A stretch of 64,000 bases of DNA from a virus, in IMG/VR virus record IMGVR_UViG_3300023174_000057, positions 102,765 to 166,764 of that record; one strand, 5' to 3'. Within the stretch, counting starts at the first letter, position 1, and every line of letters begins with the position of its first letter. Both the position numbers and the translations under genes were made by a program. Below are positions 6,423 through 29,926 of the stretch, piece by piece. Below the pieces are notes generated by a model. It searched no databases, had not been told where the DNA came from, and worked only from the letters and a program-made list of their open reading frames with translations.

Positions 6423-6779
6423 ATGTCCACCGATGCCTACATCGGGAGCCCTTTCGTGTTCCAAGTTGGGTACTTGGACGACGCGGGTCAACCCATCACC
6501 GTTACGGGCGTGAACCTCACCCTGTTCGTGTTCGACGCGAACACAGGCGTTCGCACCACTCTGGTTTCGGCGGCACCTATGGCTCCTATCGTGCCGCCGA
6601 TGCCCAGCCGCTACTACTACGCCTATACGATCCCGCCTACGTTGGAAGACGGCACCCCGCTCTACGCGGAGTACCGAGCTACGAGCGTTCTCACGGGATT
6701 CGACGTGGTGGTTTCAGATACGCTGAACCTACACGCGAAGCCATCAGACCTCGGCCTACGCTCCCGGTTCGTGAGGTGA
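6423..6779 (+). CDS. Small Ig-like virion protein
   Basis: 118 residues with a single immunoglobulin-like pattern: VFQVGYLDDAGQPITVTGVNLTLFVFD ends an early strand pair, and a YYYAYTIPP...YAEYRAT strand pair follows, as in phage neck or surface Ig domains. The N-terminal half of the neck protein at 11480 has a similar pattern (GEYYASLTVPAMATPGDYRIRW), so the two may share a fold. The stop overlaps the next start (GTGA). Function unknown. Confidence 0.6.
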   Translation: MSTDAYIGSPFVFQVGYLDDAGQPITVTGVNLTLFVFDANTGVRTTLVSAAPMAPIVPPMPSRYYYAYTIPPTLEDGTPLYAEYRATSVLTGFDVVVSDTLNLHAKPSDLGLRSRFVR

Positions 6780-7702: not shown

Positions 7703-10162
7703 ATGGCCTCGATTCAGTACAACAAGATCCTCGCAGTTCCCTCTTCGGGCCTCAAGAACCCGGCGGCTCCCAAGGCCGTTGACAGCCTCGCCCTGTCTCT
7801 CGCTGAGACGAGCATTCAGCTCGGCGCGAGCGGCTTCTTCAAGCTGCTCGACAGCGCGGGCGACAGCCTCCTCAACGCCCAGAACTCGGCCATCTCGTTC
7901 GCCCCGGACGCGAGCTTCTCGCAGGACCTCACGGTCAGCGGCGACACCATCCTCGCGGCCCTCTCGGCCACGAACGCCTCGTTCTCGGGCACGCTCGGCG
8001 TGACCGGGGCGTCCACCCTCGGCGTGCTCCACGCGGGCGCGACGGACGTGGACAGCCTCTCGGTGGACGTGGACGCCTCGGTGGGCGGCGAGCTCACGGT
8101 CAGCGGCGACTCGAACCTCGCGGACCTGTACGCGGCGGCGGCTTCGTTCTCGGGTGACGTGTCCGTCTCGGGCAACCTGACGGTCAACGGCAAGGTCACC
8201 ACGATCAACTCGGACCAGATCATGGTCCACGATCCGATCATGGTGCTGGCCGACGGCAACACGGCGGACACCTTCGACATCGGTTTCGTGGGCAAGCGCA
8301 AGAACGGCGCGGCCTTCGAGAACGTGTCGTTCTTCTACGACCAGTCGGCGGGCGAGTTCGCCGTCGCCAACGTCGGCACGACCTACGGTCAGGACGGCAG
8401 CAACAACTACCAGTCCCTCACCGTGGCGTCCTACATGGACCTCCACATCGCGGACCTCGCTGCGGCCAGCGCGGACTTCTCTGCGAACGTGGCGATCTCG
8501 GGCACCCTCTCGGCGGGCAACACCACCGTTGCCGACCTGACGGCTGAGGACGGCACGTTCTCGGGCGACATCGCAGCGGTCAACGCGACCCTCTCGGGCA
8601 ACATCTCCGCGGTGGACGGCACGTTCTCGGGCGACATCTCGGCGGACGACATCTCGGCGGCGACGGCGACCCTCTCGGGTGCCCTCTCGGCGGCTTCGGC
8701 CTCGATCTCTGGCGCGGCCACCATCGGCTCTACGCTCGACGTGACGGGTGCCCTCTCGGCGGCTTCGGCCAGCATCACGGGCGCGATGTCTTCGGGCTCC
8801 GTCTCGACGGGGAACATCAGCGCCACGGGCTCGGCCACCGTTGCCGGTGCGCTCTCGGCGGGCGCGACGGACGTGGACAGCCTCGCCGTGGACGGCAACG
8901 CCTCGGTGGGTGGGAACATCACCGCCGTCGATGCGACCCTCTCGGGTGACCTCGCCGCCGTGGACGCGGCCCTCTCGGGCGACCTCTCGGCGGTTGACGC
9001 CACCCTCTCGGGTGACCTCGCCGCCGTGGACGGCACGTTCTCGGGCAACCTCGCCGCTGTGGATGCGACCCTCTCGGGTGACCTCGCTGCGGTGGACGCC
9101 ACCCTCTCGGGCGACCTCGCCGCCGTCGATGCGACCCTCTCGGGTGACCTCTCGGCTGTGGACGCGGCCCTCTCGGGCAACGCCACCATCGCGGGTACGC
9201 TCGGCGTGACGGGAGCCCTCTCGGGCTCTTCGGCCTCGTTCAGCGCCAACATCGCTGCGGTTGACGCCACCCTCTCGGGCGACCTCGCTGCGGTTGACGC
9301 CACCCTCTCGGGCGACCTCACGGTCGCGGGTGCGGCGGACCTCGACGCCCTCACCGCTTCGGGCGCGGTTCACTTCACGGCGACTGACGATGTCCTCTCC
9401 ATCACCATCCCCGCGATGGCGGTCACCGAGAACTACGCTCTCGAAGTCGAGGGCGGCGTCCACATGGACGGCCACCTCTACCTCGCCAAGACGGGCGGCT
9501 CGCTCAACCTGAGCAGTTCTCCCGTCACCCCCGACTTCATGGTCGATGGCAAGTCGGTCTTCGCCGCGCGTCTGCAATCGGGCTCGGCGTCGAACCCCGA
9601 CTTCATGGTGAACGGTCACGCCCGGTTCAACTCGGGCTTCGCGGTGGACAGCGAGGAAGTGGCCTCGATCCGCGTCGGCAACGTGGCGGGCGACGCCATC
9701 TCGTTCTCGACGGGCACGGACGGCCACATCCACCTCGACGCTGCCAAGATCCTCCGTCTCTCGGCGGATCAGGGCATCGCGACGAACCACACCGCGAACG
9801 CCTCGGGCGCGGTGGCGGCGAACCTCGCCGTCTCGGTCAACGCCACGGGGGACTTCGTCGCCGTGCGCGCCAACGAGAAGAACGCCATCGTCCTCGGCGT
9901 GTCGCTCGCCAGCATCGCTGGTGCGTCGTCGGCCAAGGGCAAGGTTGCCGAGTTCGGCAAGGTGGAGATCGCCGTCGAAGGCGGGGCCAGCATCGCCATT
10001 GGCGACCTCCTGTACCTGTCGGCCAGCGAGGCGGGCAAGGTCACGAACGTCGTCCCGGTTGACGCGGACAGCACCGCGTACCTCATGGGCAAGGCCCTCC
10101 AAGCCCCCGTCGCGGGCAAGGTCAGCATCGCGCTGCACCGCCAGTTCCTCTACAACAACTGA
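7703..10162 (+). CDS. Tail or head fibre protein with 11-residue repeats
   Basis: 819 residues. The N-terminal 170 residues are Ala/Ser-rich; a domain around residues 160-240 (LTVNGKVTTINSDQIMVHDP ... KNGAAFENVSFF) matches a widespread phage fibre module. Residues about 285-540 are tandem 11-residue repeats of the type LSGDLAAVDAT, expected to form a beta-helix or fibrous shaft. The last 90 residues (GVSLASIAGASSAKG...VSIALHRQF) form a compact beta end domain. Codon bias is extreme. It is a single-gene unit: promoter-like box and structured leader upstream, strong terminator downstream. Whether the fibre sits on tail or head cannot be told. Confidence 0.75.
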   Translation: MASIQYNKILAVPSSGLKNPAAPKAVDSLALSLAETSIQLGASGFFKLLDSAGDSLLNAQNSAISFAPDASFSQDLTVSGDTILAALSATNASFSGTLGVTGASTLGVLHAGATDVDSLSVDVDASVGGELTVSGDSNLADLYAAAASFSGDVSVSGNLTVNGKVTTINSDQIMVHDPIMVLADGNTADTFDIGFVGKRKNGAAFENVSFFYDQSAGEFAVANVGTTYGQDGSNNYQSLTVASYMDLHIADLAAASADFSANVAISGTLSAGNTTVADLTAEDGTFSGDIAAVNATLSGNISAVDGTFSGDISADDISAATATLSGALSAASASISGAATIGSTLDVTGALSAASASITGAMSSGSVSTGNISATGSATVAGALSAGATDVDSLAVDGNASVGGNITAVDATLSGDLAAVDAALSGDLSAVDATLSGDLAAVDGTFSGNLAAVDATLSGDLAAVDATLSGDLAAVDATLSGDLSAVDAALSGNATIAGTLGVTGALSGSSASFSANIAAVDATLSGDLAAVDATLSGDLTVAGAADLDALTASGAVHFTATDDVLSITIPAMAVTENYALEVEGGVHMDGHLYLAKTGGSLNLSSSPVTPDFMVDGKSVFAARLQSGSASNPDFMVNGHARFNSGFAVDSEEVASIRVGNVAGDAISFSTGTDGHIHLDAAKILRLSADQGIATNHTANASGAVAANLAVSVNATGDFVAVRANEKNAIVLGVSLASIAGASSAKGKVAEFGKVEIAVEGGASIAIGDLLYLSASEAGKVTNVVPVDADSTAYLMGKALQAPVAGKVSIALHRQFLYNN
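8545..9330 (+). repeat. Tandem 33-base repeats inside the fibre gene
   Basis: Repeated units encoding LSGDLAAVDAT with variants such as SGDLSAVDA and FSGNLAAVDA. The units keep the 11-residue register; third-base differences show old divergence plus recent copying (near-identical units around 8935-9170 and 9255-9325). They are coding, so length variation by recombination would lengthen or shorten the shaft. Confidence 0.8.
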
Positions 10163-11479: not shown

Positions 11480-12250
11480 ATGTCAGTAGTCTTCAACCCC
11501 GGACAGACCATCGGGCAGGGTGATCTAGACATCTTCCTGACCAACGCGGGCGGGTTCCCGGCGAACGCCTACAGCATCACCTACGCCATCTACTACGTCT
11601 CCCCCGGACCGCCTGAGACGGAGGTGCTCATCGGGTCCGCCACCCGCACGCCCGTCAACCCCACGGTGGGCGAGTACTACGCCTCCCTCACCGTGCCCGC
11701 GATGGCGACGCCCGGTGACTATCGCATCCGGTGGACGTTCCAGCAGTTCGCGGGTTCGCCCCCGCAACAAGTGGTGATGGAGTGGGGCGTCGTCTCGGCA
11801 GGGCTCATCGCCGTGGGTGCGTACAGCACCCTCACCCAAGGGATGATCGACAAGTTGCGGATTTTACTCCGCGACAACGCTCCAGATCGCAACTACCACT
11901 TCAGACCCCCGGAGGCCGAAGGCAACATTGGCGCTTACAACCGCGTCTTCGGTTACGTCTGGCAGGACAACGAGCTCTTCGAGTACCTAGAGCGCGGCAT
12001 GGACTGGTGGAACATGATGCCGCCCTCTACGGGCGGCTTCACCCTCGACCAGATGGTCCAGCAGAAGCCCGAGTGGCGCACGGCGGTCCTCTGGGACGCC
12101 ATCACCCACGCTTGCTTCGCCCTCGCGTGCAACTGGGTCGTTGACGAGTTCTCGGTGAGTTCTGTTACACTACTTCACCTATCCCTGCCCGATGGTAGGA
12201 AGGTCGAGGTACCCATTGGCGAGCTCTACGACATCTGCACCGACGAGTGA
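11480..12250 (+). CDS. Neck-type protein, N-terminal part, fused to N-half of a split intein
   Basis: 256 residues; AGGAGG lies 9 bases before ATG 11480. Residues 1-110 are Ig-like, and 115-224 form a helical domain ending CNWVVDEF. Residues 225-256 (from TCG 12152) read SVSSVTLLHLSLPDGRKVEV...GELYDICTDE, an intein block A: position 1 is Ser, then the T, the DG turn and the I-x-E-L-Y end. The stop comes immediately after block A. The remaining intein blocks are encoded 936 bases downstream at 13186. The spliced product would join DEF to SYSIGGVSLDIEK, giving a 297-residue protein whose C-terminal sequence I recognise as typical of phage neck or tail-completion proteins. Splicing itself is inferred. 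Confidence 0.8.
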   Translation: MSVVFNPGQTIGQGDLDIFLTNAGGFPANAYSITYAIYYVSPGPPETEVLIGSATRTPVNPTVGEYYASLTVPAMATPGDYRIRWTFQQFAGSPPQQVVMEWGVVSAGLIAVGAYSTLTQGMIDKLRILLRDNAPDRNYHFRPPEAEGNIGAYNRVFGYVWQDNELFEYLERGMDWWNMMPPSTGGFTLDQMVQQKPEWRTAVLWDAITHACFALACNWVVDEFSVSSVTLLHLSLPDGRKVEVPIGELYDICTDE

Positions 12251-13196
12251 CCTGTCTCCCCGTCAAGTGTCCGTTCGGTACGGGTTCAACACCCGCGCCG
12301 TGATGGAGCTCATCTATGACGGGGAGCTCGTCCTACAGGGCCGCAAGATCACCGCTGCGAGCCTCGCCTCCCTCGTCGAAGGGGAGCACTACGTTCGGTG
12401 CCGGGAGTGTGGGGCGTCCGCCGCGATGATCCACTCGGCACACCTGAAGGCGTGTTCCGGCTTGGTTTCGCTGGGCGAGTACCTAGCGAAGCATCCCGGT
12501 GCGCCCGTAATGTCGGAGCGGAACAAGGCCCGGAAAGCCAAGACCCCGGCACAGCGGGTGGCTCAATCACAGAAGCTCAAGGCCCGGTTCCAGACCGACG
12601 AGGGTGAACGCACCCGCCGACAAATTGCAGACGCCTCGCGGCAGATGCAGTCGTCGGAGTCCGGGCAACGCTGCAAGGACCACCTCCGCAAGATGAACGC
12701 GGACCCCGCCGTCAAAGCGCAACGTAGGGCCGACACCAAAGCCCGGTGGGAGTCGGGCAACCTTCGTGAGACGGTCGAAGGGTGGCATCGCGAGCACCGC
12801 GACGAGTCCCTGTCGTCGGCCCTCCACGCTAGGCGCTACATCCAGCGAAAGCGTACCAAGCTCCACCTTGGGTTCAAGGCCCTCATGGAGAGCAACGGCC
12901 TCACCGGGTTCATCACCGAGCACGAGGTCGGGTACTACGCCCTCGACGAAGCCCGCCCCGACTTGAAGATCGCTGTCGAGGTAGACGGCTGCTACTATCA
13001 CTCTTGTCTCCAATGCGGGCTCAAGGGTCCGGGAGGCACGCTCCGCACGGACAAGGCCAAGACCACCTACCTGACCCCTCGCGGGTGGACGGTGATCCGC
13101 ATTTGGGAGCACGACATCAACCGCGACCCTATGGCGTGCCTAGAACGTATCCGCCGACACATCGCGGACAAGGGACGTGAGAACCATGCTGGATGA
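12216..13196 (+). CDS. Vsr-like (EDxHD-type) homing endonuclease between split-intein halves
   Basis: The frame is open from 12192; I prefer TTG 12216 because GAGGT precedes it by five bases (GTG 12267 and ATG 12303 are alternatives), giving 326 residues. It begins inside the intein N-half gene. A zinc-finger-like YVRCRECG...H...C (about residues 52-80) is followed by helical DNA-binding spacer modules, then a Vsr-fold nuclease: VEVDGCYYH and GWTVIRIWEHDI. This matches the homing endonuclease family known from fractured split-intein genes. It would cut intein-free alleles of the neck gene and spread the intein. Its 3' end overlaps the next gene by 11 bases. Confidence 0.8.
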   Translation: MASSTTSAPTSDLSPRQVSVRYGFNTRAVMELIYDGELVLQGRKITAASLASLVEGEHYVRCRECGASAAMIHSAHLKACSGLVSLGEYLAKHPGAPVMSERNKARKAKTPAQRVAQSQKLKARFQTDEGERTRRQIADASRQMQSSESGQRCKDHLRKMNADPAVKAQRRADTKARWESGNLRETVEGWHREHRDESLSSALHARRYIQRKRTKLHLGFKALMESNGLTGFITEHEVGYYALDEARPDLKIAVEVDGCYYHSCLQCGLKGPGGTLRTDKAKTTYLTPRGWTVIRIWEHDINRDPMACLERIRRHIADKGRENHAG

Positions 13197-13815
13197 AGCA
13201 ACCCGAGCCGCAATCCGCGAAGCCTACCGAGCGGGCACCCTCAAGGTCGAAGCCGTGGACCCCGCGACGGGCGCGGCCTCCCTACAGACCGTCACCGCCG
13301 TCCTGAAACACAACACCCACCACAAAGACATGGTGCGGGTGACGCTGGCGGACGGTCGCTGGGTGGAATGCACCGTGGACCACAGCCTCTTCGCGATGGC
13401 CGGGGAAGGCGTCACGCCCGTCCTCGCCGGGGAACTCCGCGTCGGGTCTGTCATCGCCACGGTGTCCCAAGGGGTAGCCGCGGGCGTCGGAGTCGCTTCG
13501 GTGGTAGCCCTACCCCCCGAGGAACACACCTACGACCTGTCCGTGCCGGGACCGCAGAACTTCGTCCTCGCCAATGGAATCCTCGCCCACAACTCGTACT
13601 CCATCGGTGGCGTCTCGTTGGACATCGAGAAGAGCTCCAAGTACGAGAGCCTGAAGCAGAACGCTGAGTCACAGTTCGACAAAGCGGCGGAAGCCAAGGC
13701 CCGCACCGTCAAGTTCATCCGTGGCATCCAGCAGCCCAAGTACGGCATCGGTATCCGCTCCAGTTTCGGACCGTTTGTAGGTAGAGGGGTGTTGAGCCCC
13801 CGTAATTTCCTTTGA
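13186..13815 (+). CDS. C-half of split intein fused to C-terminal part of neck-type protein
   Basis: 209 residues from ATG 13186 (AAGGGA ten bases upstream); GTG 13177 is less likely. Residues 1-136 are the intein C-part: block B (MVRVTLADGRWVECTVDHSLF, residues about 49-69) and blocks F/G (HTYDLSVPGPQNFVLANG...LAHN), with the terminal HN at 13588-13593. The first extein residue is Ser (13594). Residues 137-209 are the C-extein, SYSIGGVSLDIEKSSKYESL...GPFVGRGVLSPRNF. No homing endonuclease domain is inside the intein. It has no sense without the 11480 gene, which supplies block A and Ser1. Confidence 0.85.
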   Translation: MLDEATRAAIREAYRAGTLKVEAVDPATGAASLQTVTAVLKHNTHHKDMVRVTLADGRWVECTVDHSLFAMAGEGVTPVLAGELRVGSVIATVSQGVAAGVGVASVVALPPEEHTYDLSVPGPQNFVLANGILAHNSYSIGGVSLDIEKSSKYESLKQNAESQFDKAAEAKARTVKFIRGIQQPKYGIGIRSSFGPFVGRGVLSPRNFL

Positions 13816-13856
13816 ACCGTTCGTAGGCAGCGGGGTATTGACTCCTCGAATCAGAG
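13815..13856 (+). repeat. Second, diverged partial copy of neck-gene 3' end
   Basis: Directly after the C-extein stop, the frame encodes EPFVGSGVLTPRI, a diverged copy of GPFVGRGVLSPRN at the end of the C-extein (13769-13809). The two DNA segments align without gaps over about 40 bases at roughly three quarters identity. It runs in frame into the following nuclease ORF, but is best read as a leftover of the resident gene end. Confidence 0.65.
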
Positions 13857-13924: not shown

Positions 13925-15406
13925 ATGGAAGACCGACCCGAAGCCCCGTGCCCCGCCTGTAAACAATCCGTTCCCCTCAAGGGCCTCGCGAAGCACGCCT
14001 CGGGGTGTTCGCAATGGGGCACGCTAGGCGTGCCCGCGCTCCAGTTCAACTGGGACAGGTACTTCAAGCGCGGCGTCTACGCGGACGGGTTGACGGAGGG
14101 CACCGACTACGTTCGGTGCCTAGAGTGCCCGGACGGGGCGCGGGGAGACCGGGGCCTTCGCTTGATGGATCACGTCAAGAAGGTCCACGGCTTGACGAAA
14201 GAGGCGTACATCGAACGGCATCCGGGGGCTCTTCTCAACGTCCCCGGCACCCTAGAGCGCCGCAAGGCTACAGTATCGGAGCGGTACGACGGGGCGACCA
14301 ACGTGTTCCAAGTGCCCGACGTGAAGGATCGCATTCGGGACGTGATGGCCGAGAAGTACGGGGGCATGGGGGTGGGTTCCCCAGAGCTCCGAGCGAGGGT
14401 TGAGCAGACGAACGAGGTCCGGTATGGGAGTGCCAACCCGTTCGGGTCTGACAAGGTGCAGGAGAAGATTCGGGCGACGTGGCGGGAGAAGTACCAGTGC
14501 GACAACCCCAACCAGTCTCCAGAGATCATGGCGAAGCGTATTGCCACGAACCGCAAGACGCACGGCGCGGATCACTACGTCGAGACCGCCGAGTTCAAGG
14601 GGAAGTTCAAGGCGGCGAGCCAAGAGCGGTTCAAGGCGGACCATCCGATGCAATCGAAAGAGGGGCGCGAGTTGTGGGGTGCCGGATGCGTCGAGAAGCT
14701 GGGAGTAGATAACCCTCTCAAAGACCCGGACATCTATCAGAAGTCCTACGAGTCCAACCTCACCAACCACGGCGGGAAGCACTCGCAGCAGTGCCCGGAG
14801 GTGCTGGAGAAGGCACGGGCGACGTGGCGGGAGAAGTACAACACGGACAACCCGTCGAAGGTCGAAGCTGTCAAGCAGAAGATCAAGGACGTGTGGGAGG
14901 GGAAGTACGGGGTTCCGTTTCCGCCGCAGAGCTTGTGGCTGAACCAGACGCACTCGTCTCCCAACGGGCTGGAGCGGAAGGTTCAAGCGATGCTGCCCGT
15001 GTACGTCCTCTACACGGGTGACAAGACGTACAACGTGCGGTTGCCCGGTACGGCACGGGACAAGTACCCGGACTTCGTGGTGCTGGCCCCGGATCAGTTG
15101 CAAGCCTACCAGTCGGGGACGCCCTTGAAGTCCCTTCGGATTGAAGCCGCCATCGAGGCGTTTGGTTCGTACTGGCACGGCCCGGAGATGACCGGGGTAT
15201 CTCGCGAGGACCACTACAACGGGGTCATGGATTACTACGCCCGGTGCGGCCTTCGGTGTCTGATCCTGTGGGAGCACGACGTGGACAAGCGACCGGGCGA
15301 GGTGGCCGACCGGCTTCGGCGGTTCCTATCCGACGTGGCGGGGTCTGTAACCCATTCGGGCGTCGGGGCCGACCCGTCTGTTCTGGATTTTTTCCGAGGA
15401 GCTTGA
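13925..15406 (+). CDS. Second Vsr-like homing endonuclease with repeated DNA-binding modules
   Basis: About 493 residues from ATG 13925; the frame is open back to TTG 13838 but that part is the neck-gene remnant. Order: zinc-finger-like CPACKQS...H...C; a second finger YVRCLECP...H with EAYIERHPGA; then about seven modules of roughly 33 residues built on EKYG-NP-S-E-K (for example WREKYQCDNPNQSPEIMAK), which resemble tandem DNA-binding repeats of homing nucleases; then a Vsr-type catalytic end, IEAFGSYWHG and CLILWEHDV. The Asp of EVDG in the 12216 enzyme is Phe here, as in many related nucleases. Free-standing; its target is probably the neck-gene 3' end beside it. Confidence 0.8.
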   Translation: MEDRPEAPCPACKQSVPLKGLAKHASGCSQWGTLGVPALQFNWDRYFKRGVYADGLTEGTDYVRCLECPDGARGDRGLRLMDHVKKVHGLTKEAYIERHPGALLNVPGTLERRKATVSERYDGATNVFQVPDVKDRIRDVMAEKYGGMGVGSPELRARVEQTNEVRYGSANPFGSDKVQEKIRATWREKYQCDNPNQSPEIMAKRIATNRKTHGADHYVETAEFKGKFKAASQERFKADHPMQSKEGRELWGAGCVEKLGVDNPLKDPDIYQKSYESNLTNHGGKHSQQCPEVLEKARATWREKYNTDNPSKVEAVKQKIKDVWEGKYGVPFPPQSLWLNQTHSSPNGLERKVQAMLPVYVLYTGDKTYNVRLPGTARDKYPDFVVLAPDQLQAYQSGTPLKSLRIEAAIEAFGSYWHGPEMTGVSREDHYNGVMDYYARCGLRCLILWEHDVDKRPGEVADRLRRFLSDVAGSVTHSGVGADPSVLDFFRGA

Positions 15407-27624: not shown

Positions 27625-27715
27625 GGTATCGGGTACTTCGTCTCTGGGAACGTGACCTCAACGAAAACCGTGACCGCTGCGTGCAAGCAATCAAGACCGC
27701 ATTGGGAGTGCTGTG

Positions 27716-29926
27716 ATGGCCGGAAAAGACAAGCAAGATCAACAGGTTGGGGCGGGGTTGGACGTGGGTACCATGAATGTGGTCGCGGCGAGGAAGTCCT
27801 CGTCGGGGGTCGAGACCCGTCGTGTGCGCGACGCCTTCTTGGAGCTCCCCGTGGAATCCAAGAAGATGCTGAAGCTCTCGAACGTGAGCTACGTCGAGCG
27901 CGCGGACGAGCTTCTCATCCTCGGTGACGCCGCGATGGACACGGCGAACATCTTCGGACGGGAAGCGCGTCGTCCGTTGTCGGCGGGCTTGGTGAGCTCG
28001 TCGGATGTGGACGCGATGGAGATCCTCGGGCTGCTCATCAAGAACGTGCTGGGCGAGCCCAAGGTGCCCAACGAGCACTGCTATTTCTCGGTCCCCGCCG
28101 CCCCCGTGGACAAGCCCGGGCAGGACGTGATCTACCACCGTGGGGTGCTGGAGAAGATCGTCCGTGAGTGCGGGTACACCCCCACGGCGGGCAACGAGGC
28201 GATGGCGATTGTCTACGCTGAGACCGCCAAAGAGAACTTCTCGGGCATCGGCATCTCGTTCGGTAGCGGGATGACCAACTGCTTGTCGGGAGACACGAAG
28301 GTTCCTCTTCTTGATGGAACCGAGAAGACGATGGAGGAGTTGGCGAACGGGGCTGCGGGCGAGTCTTTCTGGGTCTACTCCAGCACTCCCGAAGGTCAAA
28401 TCGTTCCGGGTCTAGCACACCACCCCCGACAGACCGGAGTGCAACCCGTTCTCCGCGTCCACCTCGACGACGGGACGCATTTCGACTGCACCCGCGACCA
28501 CCGGGTGATGCTTCGGGATGGGAGTTTCCTTGAGGCGGGAGACCTCGCGCAGGGAACGAGCTTGATGCCCTTGTACCGTTATCGGACGAAGTTCCGCACC
28601 AATTCCTATCAGTTTGTCAAGGACAACTCGACGGGGAAGTGGGTCAGCGAACATCGTGCGGTTATGGAGCACGTTCTTGGTCGTCCTCTTCTGCCCGGAA
28701 AGCAGGACGAGGTGATTCATCACCGGAACTACTGCGGGACGGATAACCGCCCTGAAAACCTCCAAGTGATGTCCAATCGAGAGCACCGTGAACTCCATGA
28801 GAAGCTCGGAAAGGGAAACAGGGATCGGACTCTCGGGAAGACGTGGGAGACGTTGTACGGCCCGGAGCGAGCATCGCAAATGAAGGCGAAGCTCAAAGCA
28901 TCTCGGAACGAACCTGAAGCACGCGCTGCCATTCTGTCTGGAGCGGCGCGGGGGTCGGCGCGCATGGTGGAACTCCGCAGCGGGAAGACTTGGGGCGAGT
29001 ATTTCGGTCTAGAACGGGCAGAGGAGATCCGTGCCCAGATGTCGCTCCCCAATATTCGTGAGAAGATGCGGGTCGGGGCAGCGAAGGGTCGAGCCGCGTG
29101 GGCTGGAGAAATCACAGGAAAGAGACTCTCAGATATTTACGGTGACGAGAAGGCCGCAGGGATCAAGTCCAAGCAATCCGCCGCCAAGAAGGGACTCTCT
29201 CTCGCGGAGATCGTCGGGGACGAAGCGAAGGCCCTCGAAATCCGTAAAGGGCTGTCCGCATCCCGTATGGGGAAGGCTGGAAAGTACGAGAGGACTCCCG
29301 AAATCAGAGCGAAGATTGCGGCATCCCTGCGGGCTCGCAAAAACGTCCAGCTTGAAGCCCCCCACAACCACAAGGTTGTTAGCGTGGAAGACCTCGGAGT
29401 CACGGTGCCCGTGTACGATCTGACTGTTGACGAGCATCACAACTTCGCGTTGTCTTGCGGGGTTTTCGTCCACAACTGCGCCCTCGCGGTCAACACCATC
29501 GAGGGGCTGTCGTTCTCCGTGGGGCGCGGCGGCGATTGGATCGACGGCGGTGCGGCCAAGTCCATCGGCAGCACTGCCAGCCGCATCTGCGCCATCAAGG
29601 AGAAGGGTGTGGACCTGAACGCCCCGCAGGGGCGCGAGCAGGAAGCCCTCACGTTCTACTACAAGAACTTGATCGAGTACTCCATCGACCAGATCGCCCT
29701 TCAGTTCGCGAGCGTGCAGGGGAAGTTCACTCTCCCGAAGCCCGTTCCGATCATCGTGTCGGGGGGTACTTCCAAGGCGGGCGGGTTCTTGGAGCTCTTC
29801 AAGAGCGTGTTCGACCGCAAGCGCAAGCGGTTCCCGATTGAGGTGAGTGAGATCCGCGCCTCTACCGACCCGCTCAACGCGGTCGCGAACGGGTTGCTCA
29901 TCCAAGCGATGCAGGAGAGCGAGTGA
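27716..29926 (+). CDS. Actin-like ATPase (ParM/MreB type) interrupted by an intein
   Basis: 736 codons from ATG 27716 (GGGAG eight bases before); the spliced protein would have 337 residues, normal for bacterial actins. Phosphate-1 loop GLDVGTMNVVAAR (about residues 13-25), phosphate-2 loop GISFGSGMTN|CALA, and adenosine loop IIVSGGTSKAGGF are present. Such proteins form filaments that move DNA or organise phage replication; the role here is unknown. The intein (28280-29476) sits exactly in the phosphate-2 loop, where interruption destroys ATP binding until splicing. Set between neck genes and the tail terminator. Confidence 0.82.
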   Translation: MAGKDKQDQQVGAGLDVGTMNVVAARKSSSGVETRRVRDAFLELPVESKKMLKLSNVSYVERADELLILGDAAMDTANIFGREARRPLSAGLVSSSDVDAMEILGLLIKNVLGEPKVPNEHCYFSVPAAPVDKPGQDVIYHRGVLEKIVRECGYTPTAGNEAMAIVYAETAKENFSGIGISFGSGMTNCLSGDTKVPLLDGTEKTMEELANGAAGESFWVYSSTPEGQIVPGLAHHPRQTGVQPVLRVHLDDGTHFDCTRDHRVMLRDGSFLEAGDLAQGTSLMPLYRYRTKFRTNSYQFVKDNSTGKWVSEHRAVMEHVLGRPLLPGKQDEVIHHRNYCGTDNRPENLQVMSNREHRELHEKLGKGNRDRTLGKTWETLYGPERASQMKAKLKASRNEPEARAAILSGAARGSARMVELRSGKTWGEYFGLERAEEIRAQMSLPNIREKMRVGAAKGRAAWAGEITGKRLSDIYGDEKAAGIKSKQSAAKKGLSLAEIVGDEAKALEIRKGLSASRMGKAGKYERTPEIRAKIAASLRARKNVQLEAPHNHKVVSVEDLGVTVPVYDLTVDEHHNFALSCGVFVHNCALAVNTIEGLSFSVGRGGDWIDGGAAKSIGSTASRICAIKEKGVDLNAPQGREQEALTFYYKNLIEYSIDQIALQFASVQGKFTLPKPVPIIVSGGTSKAGGFLELFKSVFDRKRKRFPIEVSEIRASTDPLNAVANGLLIQAMQESE
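28280..29476 (+). mobile_element. HNH-containing intein of 399 residues in the actin-like gene
   Basis: Begins Cys (CLSGDTKVPLLDGTEKTMEEL, block A), block B VLRVHLDDGTHFDCTRDHRV, blocks F/G VYDLTVDEHHNFALSCGVFVHN, then Cys as first downstream residue. Inside lies an HNH nuclease: EHRAVMEHVLGR, VIHHRNYCGTDNRPENLQVM and EHRELHEKLG. Four modules of the GKTWETLYGPERA type follow, typical of DNA-recognition repeats in homing nucleases. All splicing residues are present, so it should be active. Base composition is somewhat lower in G+C than the surrounding extein. Confidence 0.92.

Follow-up and report, generated by a model that had tools for sequence, protein, structure and literature searches.

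A phage gene for a putative head-tail connector protein divided by a predicted Ser1 split intein and a Vsr-like nuclease gene, with a series of alleles at the same insertion site

We analysed a 64,000-nucleotide stretch of phage DNA (the window), positions 102,765 to 166,764 of record IMGVR_UViG_3300023174_000057, itself a fragment of 166,764 bases, in which the gene for a putative head-tail connector (neck) protein is encoded as two separate halves, each carrying part of one intein. The N-half open reading frame (ORF, 11480-12250, + strand like the other features of this locus) begins with residues 1-224 of the connector, the N-extein (11480..12151, recognized from 22 homologous loci), which ends ..NWVVDEF and is followed directly by a 32-residue N-intein (12152..12247; SVSSVTLLHLSLPDGRKVEVPIGELYDICTDE) that starts with Ser1, contains block A and runs into a stop codon at 12248-12250. 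A free-standing gene for a homing-type endonuclease, with a longest ORF of 12192..13196, occupies the gap. The C-half ORF opens with an ATG at 13186 and encodes a 136-residue C-intein (13186..13593) with the NX motif VLKH, block B TVDHSLF, and blocks F and G YDLSVPGPQNFVLANGILAHN ending GILAHN, and then the 73-residue C-extein SYSIGG..SPRNFL (13594..13815; Ser+1, stop codon 13813-13815), a segment also present in uninterrupted homologues. The locus is thus laid out as a fractured gene: each half carries one part of a split intein, and a free-standing nuclease gene lies between the two. An earlier note made from these letters alone had proposed this anatomy, namely a 32-residue Ser1 N-intein closed by a stop, a further 136 intein residues with the C-extein from 13186, a split between blocks A and B, and a gap occupied by a Vsr-like homing gene. 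Each of these elements is borne out by the results below.

The C-half matched the intein profiles PF14890 (6.8e-13) and TIGR01443 (2.8e-9), the latter match ending exactly at the C-terminal junction, and the C-intein matched inteins in the PDB with E-values down to 1.9e-12. On its own, the C-half begins to align with TIGR01445 no earlier than position 34 of the 83 in the model; when the 32-residue tail of the N-half was joined to it in silico, the score rose from 26.0 to 32.5 bits and the match reached back to model position 10. The same joining of the N-tails in two relatives (L008 and L014; relatives are given L numbers throughout) turned no hit to TIGR01445 into matches of 21.9 and 18.5 bits. 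A hidden Markov model (HMM) of the N-intein, trained on six contiguous relatives with their N-parts as the sole input and so independent of the window tail, scored that tail at 35.9 bits, compared with 14.6 for the best of 2000 shuffles and 3.2 for the second-best among 286 ORF tails in the window. Structure prediction for a contiguous relative, L141, which aligns with the other members and stands in for the family rather than for the two-chain complex of the window, gave a HINT domain with a mean predicted local distance difference test score (pLDDT) of 95.7, in which the weakest block, residues 31-40, is the split point. Foldseek searches with this model returned solved inteins as top matches, including the cysteine-less Aes123 PolB1 (9hth). 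The model thus predicts the HINT fold expected of a class 1 intein.

The sequence features of the window's intein (Ser1, block B TVDH, block F YDL, terminal HN, and Ser+1) are those of class 1. In class 3 inteins, Cys takes the place of the Asp found in block F of class 1. The family has an invariant T-x-D-H in block B and an invariant Asp (YDL) in block F, which favours class 1 over class 3; the terminal HN is likewise kept in the aligned relatives, and every member at this insertion site (site 2 below) has Ser1 and Ser or Thr at +1. The NX-motif and block B histidines are invariant in 18 relatives; the NX His is found in 24/24 split or swapped members, preceded by Lys or Arg in 22/24, and the block B His, always present in this family, may be needed here as well. 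The NX His has been described as particular to those Ser1 inteins whose +1 residue is Ser or Thr, and was critical in three tested cases (PMC10189870). The N-parts of the 24 split or swapped members are 31-43 residues long. With 32 + 136 residues in separate ORFs, the window's intein is of the atypically split kind, in which a short N-part is broken off between blocks A and B. It also has the signature of the cysteine-independent type (Ser1/Ser+1, VLKH), and no cysteine is predicted to be catalytic. The earlier note had called it Ser1 and Cys-poor, and this is accurate as long as Cys-poor is not taken as Cys-free: two cysteines remain (Cys29 in the N-part and one before block B), so that a literal cysteine-less definition excludes it. 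The intein of relative L046 (Ser1/Ser+1, N-part of 31 residues) has no cysteine at all, which would make it a useful tool where proteins are to be ligated in the absence of reducing agents.

The conserved part of the nuclease in the gap starts near 12252, within the longest reading of 12192-13196, and comprises a Zn-finger-like Cys/His region, which in the family gives weak ROS/MUCR matches, followed by a C-terminal Vsr/EDxHD-type nuclease domain (VEVDGCYYH ... WEHDI). The window's nuclease matches DUF559/MTES_1575/Vsr models (PF04480, PF18741 and TIGR00632), and the family profile found I-Bth0305I (3r3p, 8.3e-5) and Vsr (1cw0, 0.009) in the PDB. Residues E223, D232, E243, H250 and D267 are invariant in 15 nucleases, a set given here by position. 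These features identify the gap gene as a probable EDxHD/Vsr-like homing endonuclease. Between the window and its relative L001, the ratio of nonsynonymous to synonymous substitution rates (dN/dS) is 0.24 for the N-extein, 0.23 for the C-intein and 0.24 for the nuclease, and the N-intein has zero amino acid changes; intein and nuclease modules are therefore both maintained.

Among 107 contigs in which site 2 could be resolved, a survey that includes some near-copies from related samples, 77 are empty, 21 carry the split intein with a nuclease gene (among them the window, L001, L008, L014, L031, L032, L034 and L036), 2 are split without a nuclease gene, 6 have a contiguous intein and 1 has its halves in swapped order. 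Uninterrupted homologues read ..NWVADEF|DYSIGG.., with the junction where it was predicted. Removal of the intein thus restores the protein, with the +1 Asp exchanged for Ser. The insertion site just before SYSIGG proposed in the earlier note is therefore correct, with the amendment that the empty sites have Asp and not Ser there; the note had also named the observations that would count against it, and the uninterrupted homologues do join at DEF, just as the protein starting at 13186 does match intein models. The +1 residue is Asp in 69, Ser in 6 and Ala in 2 of the 77 empty sites; at the 30 intein-bearing sites it is Ser in 27, Thr in 3 and never Asp, which is what a Ser/Thr+1 nucleophile demands. 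Empty sites with Ser+1 in place of Asp were seen in L021, L080, L112, L115 and L116, and likewise in L035; such a Ser may possibly be the scar of a precisely lost intein.

The occupied sites are diverse. The split layout with a nuclease gene recurs in 21 contigs of widely different divergence. In L144 the nuclease gene has an in-frame stop. L040 and L078 are split with a gap of ~100 nt in which pieces of the nuclease's ends survive in other reading frames, and the intein is contiguous in L039, L047, L048, L137 and L141/L142. In L185 and L186, and in shortened form in L153, nuclease and C-intein make up a single in-frame fusion, and the separate N-half has a longer tail. (L153 comes from a metagenome-assembled genome labelled Altiarchaeales, and the contig looks phage-like.) In L043 (4983-6433) the C-half gene precedes the N-half gene; each is single-copy in the 113-kb record, which contains no further copy of either half beyond the swapped pair and no nuclease or gene remnants that would explain the swap. 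With this order and one copy of each half, the chain can be restored only if two separately made proteins are joined.

These alleles bear on two further explanations of the locus. Phage homing genes frequently reside within group I introns, and the gap could in principle represent such an intron, or an RNA intron of another class, that carries its homing gene and is removed from the transcript. Yet Rfam gave no match in the window, the codons flanking the gap encode intein in frame with both exteins, the contiguous versions are translated through, and the swapped halves of L043 do not fit; the evidence already contradicts an RNA intron, and we put its chances close to nil. An assembly artefact or a decaying pseudogene might be suspected where all sequences are metagenomic, but the recurrence of one layout across the 21 diverged contigs, a dN/dS of ~0.23 and the failure to see an intact second copy make this very improbable as well. 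Our search for an intact connector gene covered the window's record and six other records, and found none.

From what was observed, namely the anatomy of the locus, its matches to profiles, its homologues and their empty sites, the conservation and selection of its parts, the swapped order and the deletion scar (described below), we conclude with high confidence that this is a fractured virion gene whose connector halves would be joined by a Ser1/Ser+1 class 1 split intein, with the gap nuclease as its mobility module. The connector would be translated as two polypeptides, each bearing part of the one intein (32 + 136 residues), and these parts would associate and fold as a single HINT domain. 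Ser1, aided by the NX and block B histidines, would attack the Phe(-1) peptide bond; the N-extein would then pass to Ser+1 of SYSIGG and the last Asn would cyclise, giving one connector chain, ..VVDEF-SYSIGG... The gap nuclease would cut intein-free connector alleles (DEF|DYSIGG) of co-infecting phages, and repair would copy the intein, the nuclease gene and the Ser+1 codon into the cut allele. In relatives, the nuclease would have decayed or been deleted, leaving either a nuclease-less split intein or a re-fused mini-intein.

Several points weigh against this conclusion. Association of the fragments, the splicing chemistry, nuclease activity and homing are all steps that we infer from sequence. 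Searched by itself, the 32-residue tail hits none of the intein models of Pfam and NCBIfam, charge complementarity of the two intein parts was not seen, both being acidic on average, and no obvious start codon adjoins the conserved N-terminus of the nuclease. Every relative is a metagenomic contig, and an intact connector copy may lie outside the fragment that makes up the window's record. An intein that only cleaves, or that is inactive, would leave a connector working as two non-covalently assembled pieces, and this is compatible with the predicted status of splicing here and with the fact that each half starts on its own, as ordinary genes do. However, the splicing residues (Ser1, Ser/Thr+1 and the terminal Asn) are conserved across deeply diverged members and are retained in the contiguous, re-fused versions, the C-intein is under purifying selection, and Asp+1 gives way to Ser or Thr wherever the intein is present, all of which render two unjoined pieces unlikely. 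We therefore retain trans-splicing of the connector halves as the best explanation.

The direction of change is most readable in L141. In the split relatives L138 and L139, the sequence reads ..ATAAAAGAGGAG-GGTGAGGAGTAATG ahead of the nuclease and ..CAGCAAAGGAG-CGTATGATGGAC at the start of the C-half; the contiguous L141, ~81-83% identical to L138/L139, reads ..ATAAAAGAGGAG-CGTATGATGGAT and has an internal AGGAG and ATGATG where its split sisters begin the C-half. Because the ribosome-binding site and start codons of a C-half survive inside the joined frame, the simplest reading is that L141 arose by one deletion between two AGGAG ribosome-binding motifs, a change from split to contiguous. The opposite event, in which a contiguous intein gained a nuclease gene, is disfavoured since it would leave the pre-existing initiation site unexplained. 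The scar is absent from the other contiguous members, and for them the direction consequently rests on the tree and the shared position of the nuclease. On the intein tree, six changes are required to account for the contiguous forms, among which is that of L035 at a different site, and well supported branches force four of these changes. Mobility is suggested by a comparison of L046, which is split with a nuclease gene and has an empty site 1 (see below), with L039, in which site 1 is occupied and the site 2 intein is contiguous: the two contigs are 98-99% identical on either side of the connector gene, yet the tract between the two insertion sites is only ~80% identical. This pattern is indirect evidence for allele exchange by homing with co-conversion, in which either allele may have been the newcomer.

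The second insertion site in the same gene, site 1 (LLRDN|(N)PD), is occupied in seventeen of the surveyed contigs by a different intein, also atypically split, which has Cys1 and the block B sequence TGGH. The nuclease in its gap is TnsA-like (PF08722) in L039, L045 and L141 and HNH in L080; in a literature search for TnsA-like homing nucleases associated with inteins, none of the papers listed used the term. Genes split at both sites, and hence encoded as three polypeptides, were found in six contigs (L034, L040, L042, L045, L078 and L138), and these pair a Cys1 split intein at site 1 with a Ser1 split intein at site 2; L040 and L078 have no intact nuclease gene at either site. In L035, a third site lies close to the 3' end of the connector gene, where the window has a second nuclease gene, and holds a related intein in contiguous form. 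In L004, connector homology ends at about residue 185 and the frame ends near 6561, near the contig end, possibly at yet another insertion site. A related intein lies in a different host gene (QueC-like/amidotransferase-like) in L147 (3846-5693). The window's phage has three more inteins in other genes, all contiguous with Cys1: one in an actin/ParM-like protein with an HNH-like insert (window 27713-29926), and two with long inserts resembling a homing endonuclease domain, in a terminase-like protein (record C1:83728-85053) and in a ribonucleotide-reductase-like protein (C1:44984-45919).

The window's second nuclease gene (13925..15406, + strand) encodes DUF7487 repeats and a Vsr-like C-terminus (PF24308, 1.2e-48; PHROG 3339 homing endonuclease, 1.6e-20) with a dN/dS of 0.21, and, lying directly 3' of the connector gene, is probably a separate insertion at the end of that gene. 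Between the two genes, at 13814..13853 (+ strand), the 3' end of the connector gene is repeated in displaced form, with EPFVGSGVLTPR following the genuine ..GPFVGRGVLSPRNFL. This duplication is present only in the window and L001, and was therefore rejected as a hallmark that goes with the second nuclease in general. Upstream of the connector locus, window 7703-10162 encodes an 819-residue repetitive protein with ATLSGDLAAVD-type repeats and a bactofilin-like match; the 834-residue open frame on its opposite strand is probably a composition effect.

The identity of the host protein as a virion neck protein, also taken from the earlier note, is weakly supported. It agrees with a match to PHROG 17327 (connector), weak at E 0.002-0.011, and with the annotation of a distant homologue in Tunturi_5 as a head-tail connector. 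The protein matched no PDB sequence; its structure model is of low confidence (pLDDT 66.6) and had no useful match among solved structures.

The main surprise is the comparative series (swapped, re-fused and three-piece genes), which a single sequence could not have revealed. Arguments on how split inteins originate, and on whether they can return to contiguous form, have largely relied on isolated cases. In the connector gene, a single site is found empty, split with a nuclease, with nuclease remnants, nuclease-fused, swapped and re-fused, with one readable deletion scar, and this range of alleles makes direction and mechanism testable. We consider it likely that the split inteins of the connector family record a full homing cycle, from split with nuclease through decay and split without nuclease to re-fusion, along with genes made as three polypeptides via two split inteins and one gene in swapped order. 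The natural three-piece genes offer intein pairs for testing mutual specificity. In the open-access literature that we searched, re-fusion of split inteins by nuclease loss, swapped halves and natural three-piece, two-intein genes are unreported; as much of the intein literature lies outside it, novelty is not thereby established.

In 2009, Dassa et al. (NAR 37:2560) reportedly described fractured genes that combine split inteins with EDxHD nucleases, their examples being said to have N-parts of ~100 residues and to lie in replication and metabolic genes. The window's locus is a further member, at a new host site: it has the same separately coded halves, split intein and free-standing Vsr-like/EDxHD nuclease gene between them, and differs in its virion connector host, its early split (N-part of 32 residues) and its Ser1, while re-fused, swapped, nuclease-fused and three-piece forms are seen at its site. 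PMC3229294 and PMC6892783 cite that work on fractured genes. AceL-TerL, GOS TerL and VidaL resemble the window's intein in their short N-parts, split between blocks A and B, and their phage or environmental origin, and differ in their host proteins. AceL-TerL and VidaL have Cys1. GOS TerL pairs Ser1 with Cys+1 and has no NX His (PMC10189870). PolB16 OarG (PMC10189870) is also an atypically split class 1 intein with a short N-part, Ser1/Ser+1 and an NX His after Lys/Arg, in this case with an N-part of 15 rather than 32 residues and a DNA polymerase host. Each element of the combination that the earlier note thought unusual was found, but the precedent of PolB16 OarG makes it less singular, and the presence of the same intein family at this insertion site in ~30 phage contigs reduces its singularity further. 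The cysteine-less split inteins Aes123 PolB1, CP21 and LCGC14 (PMC12707363, PMC11923092) share Ser1/Ser+1 and the NX His, and are split late (N-part of ~115-120 residues, compared with 32 in the window) in PolB hosts. The gain, decay and loss of the homing cycle are reviewed in PMC7765530. Finally, the split PolB intein of MIJ3 (PMC6892783) likewise divides a jumbo phage gene into two ORFs with a homing gene between and begins with Ser1; it differs in its HNH nuclease, its polymerase host and the single allele described, as compared with the series of alleles at the connector site.
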